Translations under genes and position numbers: made by a program
DNA from: an uncultured Ruminococcus sp.
GTDB taxonomy: Bacteria; Bacillota; Clostridia; Oscillospirales; Ruminococcaceae
Assembly: GCA_900315755.1 (NCBI GenBank)
Contig: ONAI01000008.1
Coordinates: 9,104-45,879, forward strand
Direction: 5' to 3'
DNA: 36,776 bases
Shown: in pieces, positions 31,007-36,776 of the stretch
Position numbering within the stretch: position 1 is the first letter of the stretch
Layout: each line of letters opens with the position of its first letter
The notes under the pieces: generated by a model
The model's input: only the letters and a program-made list of their open reading frames with translations
Told to the model about the DNA's origin: nothing
Database searches by the model: none

Positions 31007-31759
31007 ATGCAAAAAATACTTGGACATATGCGAAAAGCTATTCAGGAATATGACATGATTCAAAACGGCGACCGAATCTGTGTAGGAGTATCAGGCGGCA
31101 AGGACAGCGTTGTCCTGCTTTATGGGCTCGCGCAGCTAAGAAAATTTATAGGCATCAGTTACGAACTGACAGCTGTAACTCTTGATCCTGTTTTTCAAGG
31201 CAACCGCTGCGATTACAGCGAGATCACAAAACTATGCGAGTCTTTAGGCATCGAGCATAAGGTCATAATTACTGAGATCGGCAGCATAGTGTTTGATGTT
31301 CGCAAAGAAAAGCATCCTTGCAGCCTTTGCTCGCACTTGAGACGCGGTGCTCTGCACGATGAAGCTGTGTCGCTCAACTGCAACAAAATCGCTCTCGGAC
31401 ACAATTACGACGACGCTGTCGAAACCTTTATCATGAATCTCTTCAACGAGGGACGTATCGGCTGTTTTTCCCCAGTAACACATCTCGAAAAAAAGGATCT
31501 GTTTATGATACGTCCGCTGCTATTGGCTACTGAACGTGAGATTAAACGTGCTGCAAATCGAACATCACTCCCGATAGTTAAATCAGCTTGCCCTGCGGAT
31601 GGTCACACTAACCGCCAGCGAACTAAAGAATTCCTCAGGGAAATGGAACGCTCCGATCACGGCTTTAAAGACCGAATATTCGGAGCGATGCGACGTGCTG
31701 ATATTGACGGCATGGGCGGTGTTAATTACACTCCGCCGATCCGGAAAGACGTATACTAA
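31007..31759 (+). CDS. TtcA-family tRNA thiolase (PP-loop ATPase)
   Basis: A 250-residue PP-loop enzyme that adenylates a tRNA base and replaces oxygen with sulfur. The PP-loop is SGGKDS (29-34); the [4Fe-4S] cysteines are C105 and C108 in HPCSLC and a third in SACPADGHTNRQRTKEF. ALGHNYDDAVETFIMNLFNEGRI is the family's conserved helix. In Enterobacteria TtcA makes 2-thiocytidine at position 32; in Firmicutes the substrate of such short forms is not well fixed, so I give no gene symbol. It has its own promoter and shares the terminator at 31758-31785 with the convergent ScaE-like gene. Confidence 0.9.
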   Translation: MQKILGHMRKAIQEYDMIQNGDRICVGVSGGKDSVVLLYGLAQLRKFIGISYELTAVTLDPVFQGNRCDYSEITKLCESLGIEHKVIITEIGSIVFDVRKEKHPCSLCSHLRRGALHDEAVSLNCNKIALGHNYDDAVETFIMNLFNEGRIGCFSPVTHLEKKDLFMIRPLLLATEREIKRAANRTSLPIVKSACPADGHTNRQRTKEFLREMERSDHGFKDRIFGAMRRADIDGMGGVNYTPPIRKDVY

Positions 31760-31785
31760 AAAAGGCTCTCCATAAGGAGAGCCTT
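31758..31785. terminator. Terminator between the TtcA-family and ScaE-like genes
   Basis: A 10-bp stem AAGGCTCTCC/GGAGAGCCTT with loop ATAA. The minus direction has TTTTTT after the stem, so it is a strong terminator for the cohesin gene; the plus direction has AATTATTT and is weaker. Confidence 0.85.
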
Positions 31786-31814: not shown

Positions 31815-32789
31815 TTAGTCTTCCTTCTTTCTGAGTACAAATGCAGTACCAACAGCGAGTGCAAGACCAGCAGCAGCTACGCCTACACCAGCAACACCTG
31901 TCGGAGGTGCGTTTGTTGCCTTAGCAGTAGTTGTTGTTGTAGAACCAGCACCTGATGTTGTTGTAGCAGCAGCACCAGTTGTGTCAGCCTGTGTATCAGC
32001 CTGTGTTTCAGCCTGTGTATCAGCCTGTGTATCTGGCTCTGTATCTGGCTCAGTTGGTCTCTCAATTACCTTGATAGCACCGTTTGTGATAGCGCCGTCC
32101 TCTGTGAAGAAGTATCTCTCCATGAACTGACCGTCAGCATTGTCATCAAGGTTTGTGAATGTATCGTTTGAGAACTGTGAGAAGAAGAAATCATCGATAC
32201 CGATTGGGTATACGTCGCCAGCCTTAGCCTCAGCAGGGAGATTGAACTCAACTGTGAACATTACGCCGTCGCCGCCGTCCTCAGCCTGTGCCATTGCAGC
32301 AGCCCAGATCTGACCAGCAGATGCGTTGCCTTCTTCTGTTGAACCAGTGCTAAGAACTGATGGGTTGAACATGATTCCAGGAGCTGGAAGAGCAGGACCA
32401 ACCTTAGCACCGTTTGTTGTATCTGTAAGAGTAAGACGGTTATCGAAGTTTACGTGCCAGCTGAATGAGCTGTACTTCTTATCTGCGTTAGCCATTGTGA
32501 AGTTAACTGTTACAGGCTTATCGATCTCATCCTCATATACTTCGATTGTATCGATTGTGAGTGCTGGCTTAATAGCGCTATCGCCTTCGAGCCAAGCAGC
32601 ATATTTAGCATCGTCAACAGCCTCAGGAGCTACAGCTGCGATGTTTGTCTTGAATGTTTCAGCTCCATTGTAAGCTACTGGCTCGTTATCGCCGAGGAAG
32701 CTTGCAGATGAAGACATAGCTGTTGCTGAAACAGCAACTGAAGTAACAGCGAGTGCTGCAAAAATGCTCTTTAAAGTATTCTTTCTCAT
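31815..32789 (-). CDS. scaE: Cell-wall-anchored single-cohesin protein (ScaE-like)
   Basis: A 324-residue secreted protein. Residues 1-28 are a signal peptide (SIFAALAVTSVAVSATAMSS). Residues about 50-235 have the pattern of a type III cohesin, a jelly-roll: IDTIEVYEDEIDKPVTVNFTMAN, FSWHVNFDNRLTLTD, and GVMFTVEFNLPAEAKAGDVYPIGID. A linker EPDTEPDTQADTQAETQADTQ and a threonine-rich stretch follow. The C-terminus is a sortase-type signal: NAPPTG (293-298), a 21-residue hydrophobic segment and RKKED. In R. flavefaciens ScaE, a single cohesin on the wall, binds the X-dockerins of ScaB and CttA; the two upstream genes here encode just such modules. The sorting motif is APPTG rather than LPxTG. Ribosome site AAAGGAAAG. 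Confidence 0.8.
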   Translation of the reverse strand: MRKNTLKSIFAALAVTSVAVSATAMSSSASFLGDNEPVAYNGAETFKTNIAAVAPEAVDDAKYAAWLEGDSAIKPALTIDTIEVYEDEIDKPVTVNFTMANADKKYSSFSWHVNFDNRLTLTDTTNGAKVGPALPAPGIMFNPSVLSTGSTEEGNASAGQIWAAAMAQAEDGGDGVMFTVEFNLPAEAKAGDVYPIGIDDFFFSQFSNDTFTNLDDNADGQFMERYFFTEDGAITNGAIKVIERPTEPDTEPDTQADTQAETQADTQADTTGAAATTTSGAGSTTTTTAKATNAPPTGVAGVGVAAAGLALAVGTAFVLRKKED

Positions 32790-32823
32790 TTTTAATTCTT
32801 TCCTTTCAGATATAATTTTTATG

Positions 32824-32849
32824 TTACCTGCCGCCGAAACGGCAGGTAA
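32824..32849 (-). repeat. Stable hairpin between CttA-like and ScaE-like genes
   Basis: A perfect 10-bp stem TTACCTGCCG/CGGCAGGTAA with loop CCGAAA, 13 bp after the upstream stop codon. Neither side has a U-tract in the transcript (minus strand continues AACATAAAAA), so it is not a normal terminator. It may be a partial terminator or an RNA end-protecting structure. No promoter is visible for the downstream gene, so both are probably on one transcript. Confidence 0.7.
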
Positions 32850-32862
32850 AAAACTAATTGGA

Positions 32863-35220
32863 TTATTCCTCTGTCTGTGGCTCTTCCGGCTTTACACCGC
32901 TGATTGTATTCCACATTGCTTCGTGGTTGTTCTGATACTCTTCAGTACCAATAAGCATTGCTGCTCTGAGGATGTAAGAAGCATCAGTTGTCTGATATCT
33001 TCTGTACTTTGTGGTTTCAACTCTGTCGTTCTTACCAACTCTCCAAGGAGCTGCGAAGCTATTTTCAACCTTTGCATCAGCGAGGAATGCTGCAAAGTTA
33101 TCGTAGATACCTGATGGATCATCAATAAACTTAGCTTCATCTTCAGAATCAACCTTCTTAGCTAATACGCTATTTGAAAGCTGGATTGCGAGAGGATCTG
33201 TGCCCTGCTTGTTGAGTGCGCCTACAAACTTGAATGTGAGTGTTGCATCAACAGTTGTAAGTCTTCCATCGAGGTTAGCATCGCCCTTAAGACCGATGTA
33301 AGCCTTGATTGTAAGAGGCTTGCCGTTCTTGTCGAGGAGCTGCTTGTTAGAACCGATCATTCTCTTGCCGCCAGGGTTGTTGTCTCTGATAGCATGAGCG
33401 GAGATAACCGGAACATCGTATTCAAACTGCTTCTCTTTCTGAGCCTTGTCAACGTCAAAGAGTTTATCAGGTGTGTTTTCTTCAGCAAATGTAATGTCGC
33501 TAAGCGGGATAGACTGAACGAATACATCATCTGGCTGCTCGCCATATGGCATCAGATCGCCAGTTTCTTCGTCAACAACACAGATCTGAGTGTGCTTGTA
33601 AGCCTTTACGCTTCTGATCTGGTCAATAGCGAATTCCTTATCGATTTCTGTGTAGAAACCGTAATCAGCGTCCATCTCGAAGTAGTAGCTTACTACCTCT
33701 GTTGTAGCCGGCTCTGTTACTGGATCAGTTACTGGGTCAGTTACAGGATTTGTATCAGGCTGTGTGTCTGGCTGTGTATCAGGCTGAGTGTCAGGCTGTG
33801 TATCAGGCTGAGTGTCTGGCTGTGTATCAGGCTGAGTGTCTGGCTGTGTATCAGGCTGAGTATCAGGCTGTGTATCAGGCTGAGTGTCTGGCTGTGTATC
33901 AGGCTCTGTATCCTTCTGCTTAACTGTTACGAAACGTGTTACGTTGAATGAAACAGTTGCACCAGAATCAGCGAGAGCAGTTGCGTCAACGCCGAGGTCG
34001 ATCTTCTTGATAGACTTTACGAATTCAACATCTTCAACATTTGCATCGTAATAGGTCTTAACTTCTTTCTCTTCAGCATCAGGAACATAGAATGAAAGGC
34101 TATAAATTCCGTTATTAGCTGAAGCTGTAAAGCCTTCAGTAGAGCTGTCAACAAGAGCAGCAAGATCGTTTGCTGTTATGTCGAGTGTATAATCACTGTG
34201 CTTTGCAACAAAGTTTGAAGCCTTAGTGAAAGCTTTAGTAACCTTTGAGTTTGCAGCGATAGCTGTTGCTGAAGCCGGGATCTTTTTGCTGATATTGTGA
34301 TTTGCGAGTCTCTTGTTGATCTCAGCAATGATTGTCTCTTCATCAGCAAAGAATGTATCAGCACCATCGTTGTATGTGTAGCTGTCTGCCTTGTCAATTG
34401 CTCTGAGAGCCTTGTTAGCGAACTTCACATACTTGTTGATCTGATCGTCAACGTCCTTCTTAGCTGAAGTCTTGTCGATCTCAGAAACCTTCTCGATTGC
34501 ATCATATGCAATGTTCTTGAACTCGCCAAGCTTTGCCTTAGCATACTCAAGTGTAGCCTTTGGTCCATATGTCTCATTAGTATTCTTGTCTGTGTACTCA
34601 AAGATCACTGGGATCTTCTTGCCGGCATCAAGCTTTGAAGTCTTGATAGTAACCTTAACAGAACCGTCGATCTTAACTGATTCAAAATCAATTGTCTCAA
34701 GCGAAGGAGCATTGTACTTATCAGCAAGCTTCTTTGCAAGTTCGCCAAGAGAATTCTGAACGTTCTTGTTAAGTGCCTTAGCAACATCGTTTACGTCAGC
34801 AGTAACAATAATATCGTTGTTCTTCTTATCAATTGTTACCTTTCCGTTTGAAACACTTGAAGCGAGTGCATTAGCGACATCCTTATACTGTCCGCCCATC
34901 TTAGCAACATATTCAACAGCCTTAGCAGCGTTGAAATCGAAGCTGGTATTGCCATCGCTTACGAATGTGTCGAGTATGCTTGAAGCCTTAGCATTCCATG
35001 TTGACTCAACACCACTTTCCGGAACTACCTGTTCAGGATCAATCCAAAGCAACTTTTCAACAGTGATAGCTTTATCATTATCAGCGCTCTTAATTGAAAC
35101 ACTTGAACTCGGAACCGCAGGCTTAACCTCAGCAAAAGAACTGAAATTCAAGCACTGTGTGAGAGCGAGCGGAACAGCAGATGCTGCGGCTGCAACTCTT
35201 TTGAATAATGAATTCTTCAT
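32863..35220 (-). CDS. CttA-like secreted X-module-dockerin protein
   Basis: A 785-residue exported protein. A signal peptide (MKNSLFKRVAAAASAVPLALTQCLNFSSFA) is followed by a lysine/alanine-rich region to about 433 with no recognised fold. Residues 434-501 are a tandem linker of twelve PDTQ units ending in PVTDPVTDPVTEP. From about 505 an X-module (YYFEMDADYGFYTEIDKEFA, QFEYDVPV) leads into a dockerin at about 641: YIGLKGDANLDGRLTTVDATLTFKFV, a long insert, then RYQTTDASYILRAAM. The module closely resembles, by eye, the X-dockerin of R. flavefaciens CttA, which binds the ScaE cohesin. The N-terminal half has few Trp residues and does not look like known cellulose-binding modules. Start at 35220 chosen for the signal peptide. 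Confidence 0.8.
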   Translation of the reverse strand: MKNSLFKRVAAAASAVPLALTQCLNFSSFAEVKPAVPSSSVSIKSADNDKAITVEKLLWIDPEQVVPESGVESTWNAKASSILDTFVSDGNTSFDFNAAKAVEYVAKMGGQYKDVANALASSVSNGKVTIDKKNNDIIVTADVNDVAKALNKNVQNSLGELAKKLADKYNAPSLETIDFESVKIDGSVKVTIKTSKLDAGKKIPVIFEYTDKNTNETYGPKATLEYAKAKLGEFKNIAYDAIEKVSEIDKTSAKKDVDDQINKYVKFANKALRAIDKADSYTYNDGADTFFADEETIIAEINKRLANHNISKKIPASATAIAANSKVTKAFTKASNFVAKHSDYTLDITANDLAALVDSSTEGFTASANNGIYSLSFYVPDAEEKEVKTYYDANVEDVEFVKSIKKIDLGVDATALADSGATVSFNVTRFVTVKQKDTEPDTQPDTQPDTQPDTQPDTQPDTQPDTQPDTQPDTQPDTQPDTQPDTQPDTNPVTDPVTDPVTEPATTEVVSYYFEMDADYGFYTEIDKEFAIDQIRSVKAYKHTQICVVDEETGDLMPYGEQPDDVFVQSIPLSDITFAEENTPDKLFDVDKAQKEKQFEYDVPVISAHAIRDNNPGGKRMIGSNKQLLDKNGKPLTIKAYIGLKGDANLDGRLTTVDATLTFKFVGALNKQGTDPLAIQLSNSVLAKKVDSEDEAKFIDDPSGIYDNFAAFLADAKVENSFAAPWRVGKNDRVETTKYRRYQTTDASYILRAAMLIGTEEYQNNHEAMWNTISGVKPEEPQTEE
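33716..33915 (-). repeat. Tandem 12-bp coding repeat (PDTQ linker)
   Basis: Twelve PDTQ units plus PDTN and two PVTD units, encoded by a 12-bp repeat with synonymous changes (plus-strand units tgtatcaggctg, tgtgtctggctg and tgagtgtctggc variants). It is the same kind of Pro/Asp/Thr linker as in the neighbouring genes. Confidence 0.9.
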
Positions 35221-35465
35221 TGTTCTATACCTCTCTATCATATTATTGTCCCCTGCTGTTATTATGTACAAAAACTGCAAATAGGGCGTAATTTCGGGAA
35301 AGCTTTCTGTAAATACATATAGCTTGCCCAGAAATTCATAACTACATTTTATCACATAACTATCAATAAGTCAAGAAATAATGTGTATTTTTTTCAAAAA
35401 TTATTGACGATTAATCATTACTATTTTTGTGCTTATTTCACAAGCAATCCCCTGTTCACTTAAAT

Positions 35466-35506
35466 AATACAGTGTTTATTGTTAATATTGCAGTAAACGC
35501 TGTATT
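35466..35506 (-). promoter_or_regulatory. Inverted repeat in the CttA-like gene leader
   Basis: AATACAGTGTTTA (35466-35478) and TAAACGCTGTATT (35494-35506) form a 13-bp inverted repeat with one mismatch and a 15-base centre. It lies just inside the transcript predicted from the promoter at 35521-35549, about eight bases after its start. An operator or a leader hairpin are both possible. Confidence 0.55.
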
Positions 35507-35520
35507 ATCGGCTTAGACTC

Positions 35521-35549
35521 ATTATATCAGATCATTTCATACAAGTCAA
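35521..35549 (-). promoter_or_regulatory. Promoter of the CttA-like and ScaE-like genes
   Basis: Minus strand TTGACT (35549-35544), 17-base spacer, TATAAT (35526-35521). Transcription would begin near 35514 and give a leader of about 290 bases that holds the inverted repeat at 35466-35506. Confidence 0.75.
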
Positions 35550-35566
35550 TCTGTAAATTCTGGCAT

Positions 35567-35598
35567 AAAAAAAGCAGATCCGAAGATCTGCTTTTTTT
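35567..35598 (-). terminator. Terminator of the ScaB-like gene
   Basis: A 7-bp stem GCAGATC/GATCTGC with a TTCG tetraloop on the minus strand, flanked by seven A and seven T, so it ends the minus-strand gene efficiently. The promoter of the next gene starts 18 bp further on, so the two genes have separate transcripts. Confidence 0.92.
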
Positions 35599-35612
35599 AT
35601 TATTTTGTTGGA

Positions 35613-36776
35613 TTACTTCCTGCCCTTTACATTCTTACCAGCAGTAGCCTTAACCCACAAGTTATATCTTGTTGAATCTGTAGGCTCTTCATTATTATTA
35701 TTTGCCTTTTCCTGGTTGTAGAGCTGGATCCAGTTAAGGATCATAGAAGCATCTGTTACATTGAATCTTCTGCCGTTCTTCTTAGTTTTCCAGTTGTTTA
35801 CATCGTATTCGTTCTGGTCTACGTCAGCGAGGAATGCAGAGAGTTCTTCAAGATCAGAATCTGTGCCTTCATCAACTCTGGTGTTAAGACGGAACTTATA
35901 CGGAGCATCCGGATCTGTCCTCATTGCAGGATCATTGAGCGACTTAACATACTTAAATGTATATGTTGCATCAACTACTGTCAATCTGTTATCGAGGTTT
36001 GCATCACCCTTGACACCAATGTATACTGTTGCGCATACCGGCTTACCATCCTTGGTTACAAGAGCAGTTTCGCCAATATAGATCGGAACTTCATACTTGA
36101 ATGTCTTACTCTTACTATCGTAAATCTTTGCAGGTGTTGCACCATTGAAGTTTACGTCATTAATATCAATGTCTTCGCCGAGAACCTTAACAACTTCCTT
36201 ACCGTCAACTACCTCAACAAGCTTGAGAGACTTGAGCATATTCTTGGAGAATCCAATACCTGTGCTTTCGCCGTCATCGTGGCTGAAATAGTAACCCTTT
36301 TCGAGTTCGTAAGACTCAGCATAGATCTGAGGTTCTGTTACAGGATCAGTTACTGGATCTGTTACAGGATCAGTTACTGGATCTGTCACTGGATCAGTTA
36401 CAGGATCTGTTACTGGATCAGTTACTGGATCTGTCACTGGATCAGTTACAGGATCTGTCACTGGATCAGTTACAGGATCTGTTACTGGATCAGTTACTGG
36501 ATCTGTTACTGGATCTGTCACTGGATCAGTTACTGGATCTGTCACTGGATCAGTTACAGGATCTGTTACAGGATCTGTCACTGGATCTGTTACAGGATCT
36601 GTCACTGGATCAGTTACAGGATCTGTCACTGGATCTGTTACTGGATCAGTTACAGGATCTGTCACTGGATCTGTTACTGGATTAGTTACTGGATCAGTTA
36701 CAGGATCTGTTACTGGATCAGTTACAGGATCTGTCACTGGATCTGTTACTGGATCTGTCACAGGATCTGTTACAGG
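35613..36776 (-). CDS. ScaB-like scaffoldin C-terminal part: PVTD linker and X-module-dockerin (5' end outside window)
   Basis: About 388 visible codons; the N-terminus lies beyond the window. The visible part begins inside a long PVTD tandem repeat to the window edge (about 37 units), then TEPQIYAESYELEKGYYFSHDDG opens an X-module (about 120 residues, with FKYEVPIYIGETALVTKDGKPV). The dockerin follows: YIGVKGDANLDNRLTVVDATYTFKYV, an insert, then RRFNVTDASMILNWIQLYN, ending in a basic tail KNVKGRK. The first calcium loop keeps D, N, D and D; the second has lost the D-x-N-x-D pattern. The module is paralogous to the C-terminus of the next gene. Position and module match ScaB of the R. flavefaciens sca cluster, but the cohesins that would prove a scaffoldin are not in view. 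Confidence 0.78.
   Translation of the reverse strand, partial: PVTDPVTDPVTDPVTDPVTDPVTDPVTDPVTNPVTDPVTDPVTDPVTDPVTDPVTDPVTDPVTDPVTDPVTDPVTDPVTDPVTDPVTDPVTDPVTDPVTDPVTDPVTDPVTDPVTDPVTDPVTDPVTDPVTDPVTDPVTDPVTDPVTEPQIYAESYELEKGYYFSHDDGESTGIGFSKNMLKSLKLVEVVDGKEVVKVLGEDIDINDVNFNGATPAKIYDSKSKTFKYEVPIYIGETALVTKDGKPVCATVYIGVKGDANLDNRLTVVDATYTFKYVKSLNDPAMRTDPDAPYKFRLNTRVDEGTDSDLEELSAFLADVDQNEYDVNNWKTKKNGRRFNVTDASMILNWIQLYNQEKANNNNEEPTDSTRYNLWVKATAGKNVKGRK
36335..36776 (-). repeat. Tandem 12-bp coding repeat (PVTD linker), reaching the window edge
   Basis: About 37 consecutive PVTD units. The Asp codon is always GAT, while Pro (CCA/CCT), Val (GTA/GTG) and Thr (ACT/ACA) vary at third positions; only one unit differs in protein, TNPV near 36681. 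It continues past the window end. Confidence 0.95.

Follow-up and report, generated by a model that had tools for sequence, protein, structure and literature searches.

Evidence for the wall-anchoring half of a Ruminococcus flavefaciens-type sca cluster at a contig end of an uncultured Ruminococcus sp.

In Ruminococcus flavefaciens, ScaE is reported to be fixed to the cell wall by sortase and to bind, through its cohesin, the X-dockerins (X-module plus dockerin) of ScaB and CttA, and the CttA:ScaE bond is described as being among the strongest measured. The question addressed here is whether an uncultured Ruminococcus sp. (assembly GCA_900315755.1) carries the same anchoring genes at the right end of a 36,776-nucleotide stretch of its DNA, which we call the window. 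The window is bases 9104 to 45879 of contig C19 (ONAI01000008.1), and the contig ends at window base 36776. A preliminary description made from the sequence alone had named three minus-strand genes at this end as ScaB-like, CttA-like, and ScaE-like. Sequence comparisons, the predicted cohesin fold, an X-dockerin tree, and gene order in relatives all agree with these names. We conclude, with a probability of about 95%, that the right end of the window is the wall-anchoring half of a sca cluster of the R. flavefaciens type, a known system in a new lineage.

Three minus-strand genes at the contig end

Read leftwards from the contig end, the minus strand carries the 3' end of scaB, then cttA, and then scaE. 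The corresponding frames span positions 35613 to 36776 (387 amino acids [aa], open at the contig end), 32863 to 35355 (with an ATG at 35229), and 31815 to 32789 (324 aa). The cttA frame is open to a GTG at 35355 and has a second ATG at 35208. The features of these genes, except for the N-terminal region of CttA, are as follows.

35613 to 36776, minus strand: 3' end of scaB, cut by the contig end (X-dockerin matches, overlap in a sister genome, tree)
35616 to 36335, minus strand: ScaB X-module and dockerin (PF18244, solved X-dockerin chains, tree)
36339 to 36776, minus strand: ScaB linker of 146 aa, lying before the X-module and containing 35 VTDP units (repeat count)
32863 to 35229, minus strand: cttA, 788 aa from the ATG (signal peptide, alpha/beta N-terminal region, DTQP linker, X-module, dockerin)
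33706 to 33909, minus strand: CttA linker with 12 DTQP repeats (repeat count)
32866 to 33711, minus strand: CttA X-module and dockerin (matches to 4wkz_A and 4iu2_B; CttA side of the tree)
31815 to 32789, minus strand: scaE, the putative wall anchor (signal peptide, single type III cohesin, sortase tail)
32055 to 32594, minus strand: ScaE cohesin module, aa 66 to 245 (sequence and Foldseek matches)
31818 to 31913, minus strand: sorting tail, NAPPTG plus a hydrophobic stretch plus RKKED (sequence reading and the tails of relatives)

The ScaE cohesin matches the solved R. flavefaciens "cell-wall anchoring protein" chains 4iu2_A and 8ajy_A with an E value of ~5e-21 and also matches 2zf9_A, which is named ScaE (E 5.8e-10). 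When an AlphaFold2 model of ScaE (predicted local distance difference test [pLDDT] score of 81.8) was compared with solved structures by Foldseek, ranks 1 to 8 were R. flavefaciens anchor cohesins at 24 to 30% identity (9gvb_A and 4iu2_A, E ~5e-15) and ranks 9 to 17 were R. flavefaciens "autonomous" (ScaG) cohesins. ScaE is therefore a single type III cohesin protein by both sequence match and predicted fold, and the cohesin fold on which the preliminary description depended is predicted for 31815 to 32789. By reading of the sequence, ScaE also has an N-terminal hydrophobic signal and a C-terminal sortase signal, and its NAPPTG...RKKED tail is the wall-sorting tail that had been described for it. 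A tail of TG, a hydrophobic stretch, and KKED is present in 34 of 34 ScaE-position proteins, window included; this set was hand-picked from search hits, with duplicates and cohesin proteins from elsewhere left out. There are five sortase-family matches in the window's genome.

The two longer genes share their C-terminal end, a GDANLD-(N/G)RLT-VDAT motif with a later TDAS-IL helix, and the earlier observation that two consecutive genes end in the same X-module and dockerin is borne out by these frames and motifs. The right-edge gene matches the X-module family PF18244 (E 2.9e-10) and the solved CttA X-dockerin chains 4wkz_A (E 1.5e-14) and 4iu2_B (E 1.9e-14), which gives it the C-terminal X-dockerin of a ScaB. 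The X-dockerin of the middle gene matches the same two chains weakly (E 1.9e-8 and 3.6e-8, respectively). This X-dockerin follows an N-terminal region that is homologous to those of other CttA-position proteins, including those of the named R. flavefaciens strains Y1 (L095) and XPD3002 (L088), as is the case for a CttA. Two apparent leads were set aside. The name of PF18244, "CttA N-terminal domain," is not a guide, since the family matches the X-module and not the start of CttA. The long VTDP linker, inside which the contig ends, is not a distinguishing feature either, since the distance from the last cohesin to the X-module spans 3 to 200 aa in 32 frames of relatives (duplicate and truncated frames included).

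This arrangement resembles that of R. flavefaciens FD-1, 17, and 007C (PMC4081043, PMC5301203, PMC3672088) in gene order, in module order, in the X-dockerins that end ScaB and CttA, and in a single-cohesin ScaE with a sortase tail. Unlike those strains, the window has VTDP and DTQP linkers. Compared with the solved ScaE cohesin:CttA X-dockerin complex (Protein Data Bank [PDB] 4iu2/4iu3; force study, PMC4266597), both partners are recognizable by sequence and the cohesin is also recognizable by predicted fold. The match of the window's CttA X-dockerin is weak (E ~2e-8).

Gene order in relatives and the missing scaffold body

Gene order was compared in 50 stretches (the window, L006, L145, L147, and L069 to L114). 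The window, L006, and L145 were not counted, and the duplicates L073, L092, L107, and L111 were dropped along with L082 and L084, which hold only the tail of scaE, leaving 41 loci. The order X-dockerin gene-cttA-scaE is found in 32 of these 41 distinct related loci, and in 37 of them scaE is followed by a PP-loop ATPase gene on the other strand, which in the window is the following feature.

31007 to 31759, plus strand: PP-loop ATPase, the conserved neighbor of scaE ("orfA, ATPase, PP family" in R. flavefaciens 007C)

The same ATPase gene is reported after scaE in strain 007C, in which scaB itself lies on two contigs (PMC3672088). The nine contigs that include everything between scaC and scaE share a single order, which is scaC-scaA-scaB-cttA-scaE in eight and the same with scaA and scaB fused in the ninth (L102). 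A further locus, L109, has scaC-scaA-scaB-cttA and then the contig end. Cohesins are present in the gene at the scaB position whenever its frame extends far enough to show them. In addition, six loci (L098, L102, L109, L110, L112, and L147) have capA upstream of scaC, and dus precedes capA in L102 and in the sister genome described below. In a tree of 75 X-dockerins made by a quick method, the right-edge module falls among the ScaB-position rows and the middle one falls among the CttA rows.

Two observations on these relatives stand apart from the order itself. The fused gene of L102 (4204 to 8775, plus strand) encodes the scaA N-terminal module and the scaB X-dockerin in a single frame of 1523 aa. 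In the tree, L080, L104, L105, and L106 each have their own two X-dockerins as closest neighbors, a pattern suggestive of gene conversion, or of repeated replacement, between ScaB and the protein encoded next to it.

The preliminary description had predicted that genes like scaA and scaC would lie just past base 36776. The contig stops there, but a complete ScaC-like gene and part of scaA are present on another contig of the same genome, C113, and point in the matching direction. On one strand, C113 carries dus-capA-scaC-scaA', with scaA running off the contig end. The ScaC-like gene has a cohesin (E 5e-15) and a dockerin (E 2.7e-4) that scores 21.5 bits against a cutoff of 22.9 and 23.2 bits in another search. 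The scaA fragment covers the first 322 aa, comprising the N-module and the beginning of the first cohesin, and it is 97% identical over these 322 aa to the scaA of the sister. We infer that C19 and C113 are neighbors in the window's genome.

The sister is the closest relative found, a metagenome-assembled genome named R. flavefaciens SIG534 (L069 = G099:C6), whose ScaE is 85% identical to that of the window, the best of 28 loci. Its assembly breaks in the same gene, scaB, as does that of the window. Sister contig C25 carries dus-capA-scaC-scaA (734 aa)-scaB (1377 aa, open), and its end overlaps the end of C6 by 155 base pairs at 98% identity, inside scaB and including the last cohesin strand before the linker. 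Pfam detects eight cohesin stretches in the open part of the sister ScaB, compared with the nine (4 + 5) reported for FD-1 (PMC5301203). Four of the eight resemble those of ScaA, and the other four are of a second type. Unbroken scaB frames with both cohesins and an X-dockerin are present in other relatives.

One alternative is that the right-edge gene is not scaB and that a different protein with an X-dockerin is encoded next to cttA, for example a ScaF-like adaptor or the cysteine peptidase that has been reported in FD-1. The window shows only the linker and X-dockerin of this gene, and X-dockerins on other proteins do exist, since a ScaF-like cohesin protein of the sister has one that is 82.6% identical to that of the sister's own ScaB. 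Nevertheless, the sister gene at this place reaches eight cohesins by way of the contig overlap and a run of 100 Ns, the relatives' gene at this place has cohesins in every frame of sufficient length, and C113 ends inside scaA in the right direction. We consider this alternative very improbable.

Several observations weigh against the assignment of this region as an anchoring half-cluster. The Pfam Cohesin profile gives no match to the divergent ScaE cohesin, and a search with PF18244 does not detect the X-module of cttA. Nine of the 41 loci do not have the three-gene order: L071, L077, L093, and L109 are cut at or before the edge of the contig or locus, L072, L074, and L104 have cttA in two frames, L105 has a middle X-dockerin gene that was not recognized as cttA, and L108 is another gene. 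The labels in the X-dockerin tree, in which some truncated CttA pieces are labeled "ScaB_or_other," need 7 changes and not 1. Searches of the window's genome did not find the remainder of scaA or the scaB body, and none of its sequence bridges the gap from C19 to C113. In the sister, a 100-N run on C6 lies in the linker between the overlap and the X-dockerin, and the link within its scaB is therefore a contig overlap plus a scaffold join.

The absence of the scaffold body from the assembly could also mean that the window holds a decayed or nonfunctional remnant of the anchoring device, and the ScaE cohesin is the fastest-changing module of the window between the sisters (nonsynonymous divergence [dN] of 0.099 versus 0.018 and 0.025 for the X-dockerins). 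However, the frames are intact, there are 59 dockerin matches in the genome, and VTDP repeats, which lie near the ends of both contigs, account for the missing body. The ratios of dN to synonymous divergence (dN/dS) against the sister, calculated by simple counting and with no test of significance, are 0.18 to 0.44 for six modules: 0.44 for the ScaE cohesin, 0.24 each for the CttA N-terminal region, the CttA X-dockerin, and the ScaB X-dockerin, 0.43 for the ScaA N-module, and 0.18 for ScaC. The Pfam Cohesin profile was also tried as a census of scaffoldins. It matches three places in the genome and misses both ScaE and a cohesin on contig C76; since it undercounts, the low count is not a sign of a missing scaffold. 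Decay appears even less probable than a misnamed scaB. Apart from this question, the ScaE cohesin has changed four to five times faster at the protein level between the sisters than the two X-dockerins that it would bind.

The N-terminal region of CttA

If the window ends in the anchoring half of a sca cluster, the part of CttA that would hold the fiber is the region ahead of its DTQP linker.

33919 to 35148, minus strand: CttA N-terminal region (aa 28 to 437), presumed to bind cellulose

A structure model of this region, which rests on 19 sequences (the window and 18 aligned relatives), has a mean pLDDT of 86.7 and a predicted template modeling score of 0.82, with residues 1 to 24 below 50. 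As read from the secondary-structure string of the model, the region is predicted to consist of two halves of mixed alpha/beta structure, separated by two long helices. Comparison of the two halves by hhalign gave a weak match (probability 14, E 0.002), while 20 column-shuffled controls reached at most 0.49.

Searches for known counterparts were negative. Foldseek comparison of the model with the PDB gave 0 matches with an E value of ≤0.001. The top matches, NEAT-domain proteins at E 0.017, were rejected as chance, with template modeling scores by query length of at most 0.14 among the best 50 of 165 rows. In Pfam, the region from the window meets three families, all under the cutoff. Among the best 25 of 28 families, none has matches to more than 2 of the 19 members, and the best E value is 0.0017. 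A profile of the region compared with PDB sequences found a repetitive adhesin at E 0.0014, with no single stretch passing alone, and this was likewise taken as chance.

R. flavefaciens CttA has been described as carrying "two new CBMs" (carbohydrate-binding modules; PMC2721979) and is reported to attach to cellulose via two CBMs (PMC4081043). No structure of the CttA CBMs was found in the literature searched, the reach of which did not include the original description of CttA. We tentatively propose, at somewhat short of even odds, that the fiber-holding part of CttA is two copies of an alpha/beta domain connected by a helical hairpin, a fold with no counterpart among solved structures. Most known CBMs are beta-sandwiches, and the proposed CBM would be unlike them. 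As part of this proposal, the region would travel with the sca cluster; it is present in 39 of 60 genomes of the genus, with one match in 31 and two or three matches, mostly pieces of one region, in 8.

An alternative is that the ligand of the region in this organism is not cellulose. It is only 23 to 41% identical to the 17 aligned relatives besides the sister, and its predicted structure is not the beta-sandwich that is usual for CBMs. Against this, a homologous region occupies the same place of the cluster in relatives, and the attachment reported for R. flavefaciens CttA is to cellulose (PMC4081043). We regard a different ligand as unlikely. A cellulose binder that is not a beta-sandwich would be notable, if true, and the model, if right, would give a shape to a fiber adhesin for which we found no structure.

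Transcription signals, adaptors, and the anchoring device

Two candidate transcription signals lie between scaB and cttA, and a stem-loop lies beyond scaE.

35565 to 35600, minus strand: intrinsic terminator after scaB (16-pair stem, UUCG loop, T run)
35521 to 35549, minus strand: sigma-70-like site upstream of cttA, TTGACT-17-TATAAT with TG, 11 of 12, the best in the scan
31762 to 31785, strand not assigned: stem-loop between the convergent scaE and PP-loop ATPase genes, with a T run on the minus strand

The predicted terminator has a stability of -20.3 kcal/mol (z -7.7), and 0 of 200 shuffles were as stable; the stem scan lists it on the plus strand only, with the T run being counted into the stem. 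There are 13 promoter-like sites in 4.4 kb compared with 8.0 ± 3.0 in shuffled sequence, and the promoter match alone therefore means little. Taken together, the terminator and the promoter-like site suggest that cttA, and perhaps also scaE, may be transcribed apart from scaC-scaA-scaB.

Two cohesin proteins of this genome recall the one-cohesin, one-dockerin adaptors of R. flavefaciens (ScaC, ScaF, ScaH, and the FD-1 "ScaE-like scaffoldin"; PMC5301203). In addition to the ScaC-like gene on C113, a 447-aa frame on contig C76 (L015:1414-2757, minus strand) joins a ScaE-type cohesin (E 1.1e-17) to an ordinary dockerin through a PPTDPVTE linker. Judged by its modules, this adaptor could offer a ScaE-type socket inside the scaffold. 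Contig C80 (L007:7208-7879, minus strand) encodes a lipoprotein-like protein of 223 aa that has a single cohesin (Pfam E 6.6e-7). The gene lies between two that read as flippase-like and clpC-like, and its product is possibly a second surface socket.

The ScaF-like protein of the sister is encoded on its contig C8 (L108:6486-7979, minus strand; 497 aa from the ATG) and combines a ScaE-type cohesin with a ScaB-type X-dockerin, in which 195 of 236 positions are identical to those of the sister's own ScaB X-dockerin. "ScaF-like" is a label given by reading of the sequence. The cohesin half is 57 to 66% identical to ~370-aa proteins in six other genomes that have an ordinary dockerin at the C terminus. 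The matches listed across 100 genomes of the genus, the frames of which were not each read, showed no second fusion of this kind that was noticed, and the window's genome, for which a completeness of 92% is given, showed none either. In FD-1, both plug types, the X-dockerin and the ordinary dockerin, are reported to bind ScaE (PMC5301203), and the C8 fusion therefore reads as a natural exchange of one plug type for the other that would keep the address.

By analogy with published R. flavefaciens work, from which the binding pairs, load resistance, sortase attachment, and cellulose binding are all inferred, ScaE would be secreted and fixed to the cell wall by sortase. Its one cohesin would receive the X-dockerins of both ScaB, the enzyme-loaded scaffold, and CttA, which would hold cellulose via its N-terminal region. 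Enzymes and fiber would thus be docked on the same wall receptor. The window would add a lineage to the cellulosomes anchored by one of the most load-resistant protein pairs reported (PMC4266597), and its diverged receptor and two ligands would provide independent material for testing which contacts carry the load.

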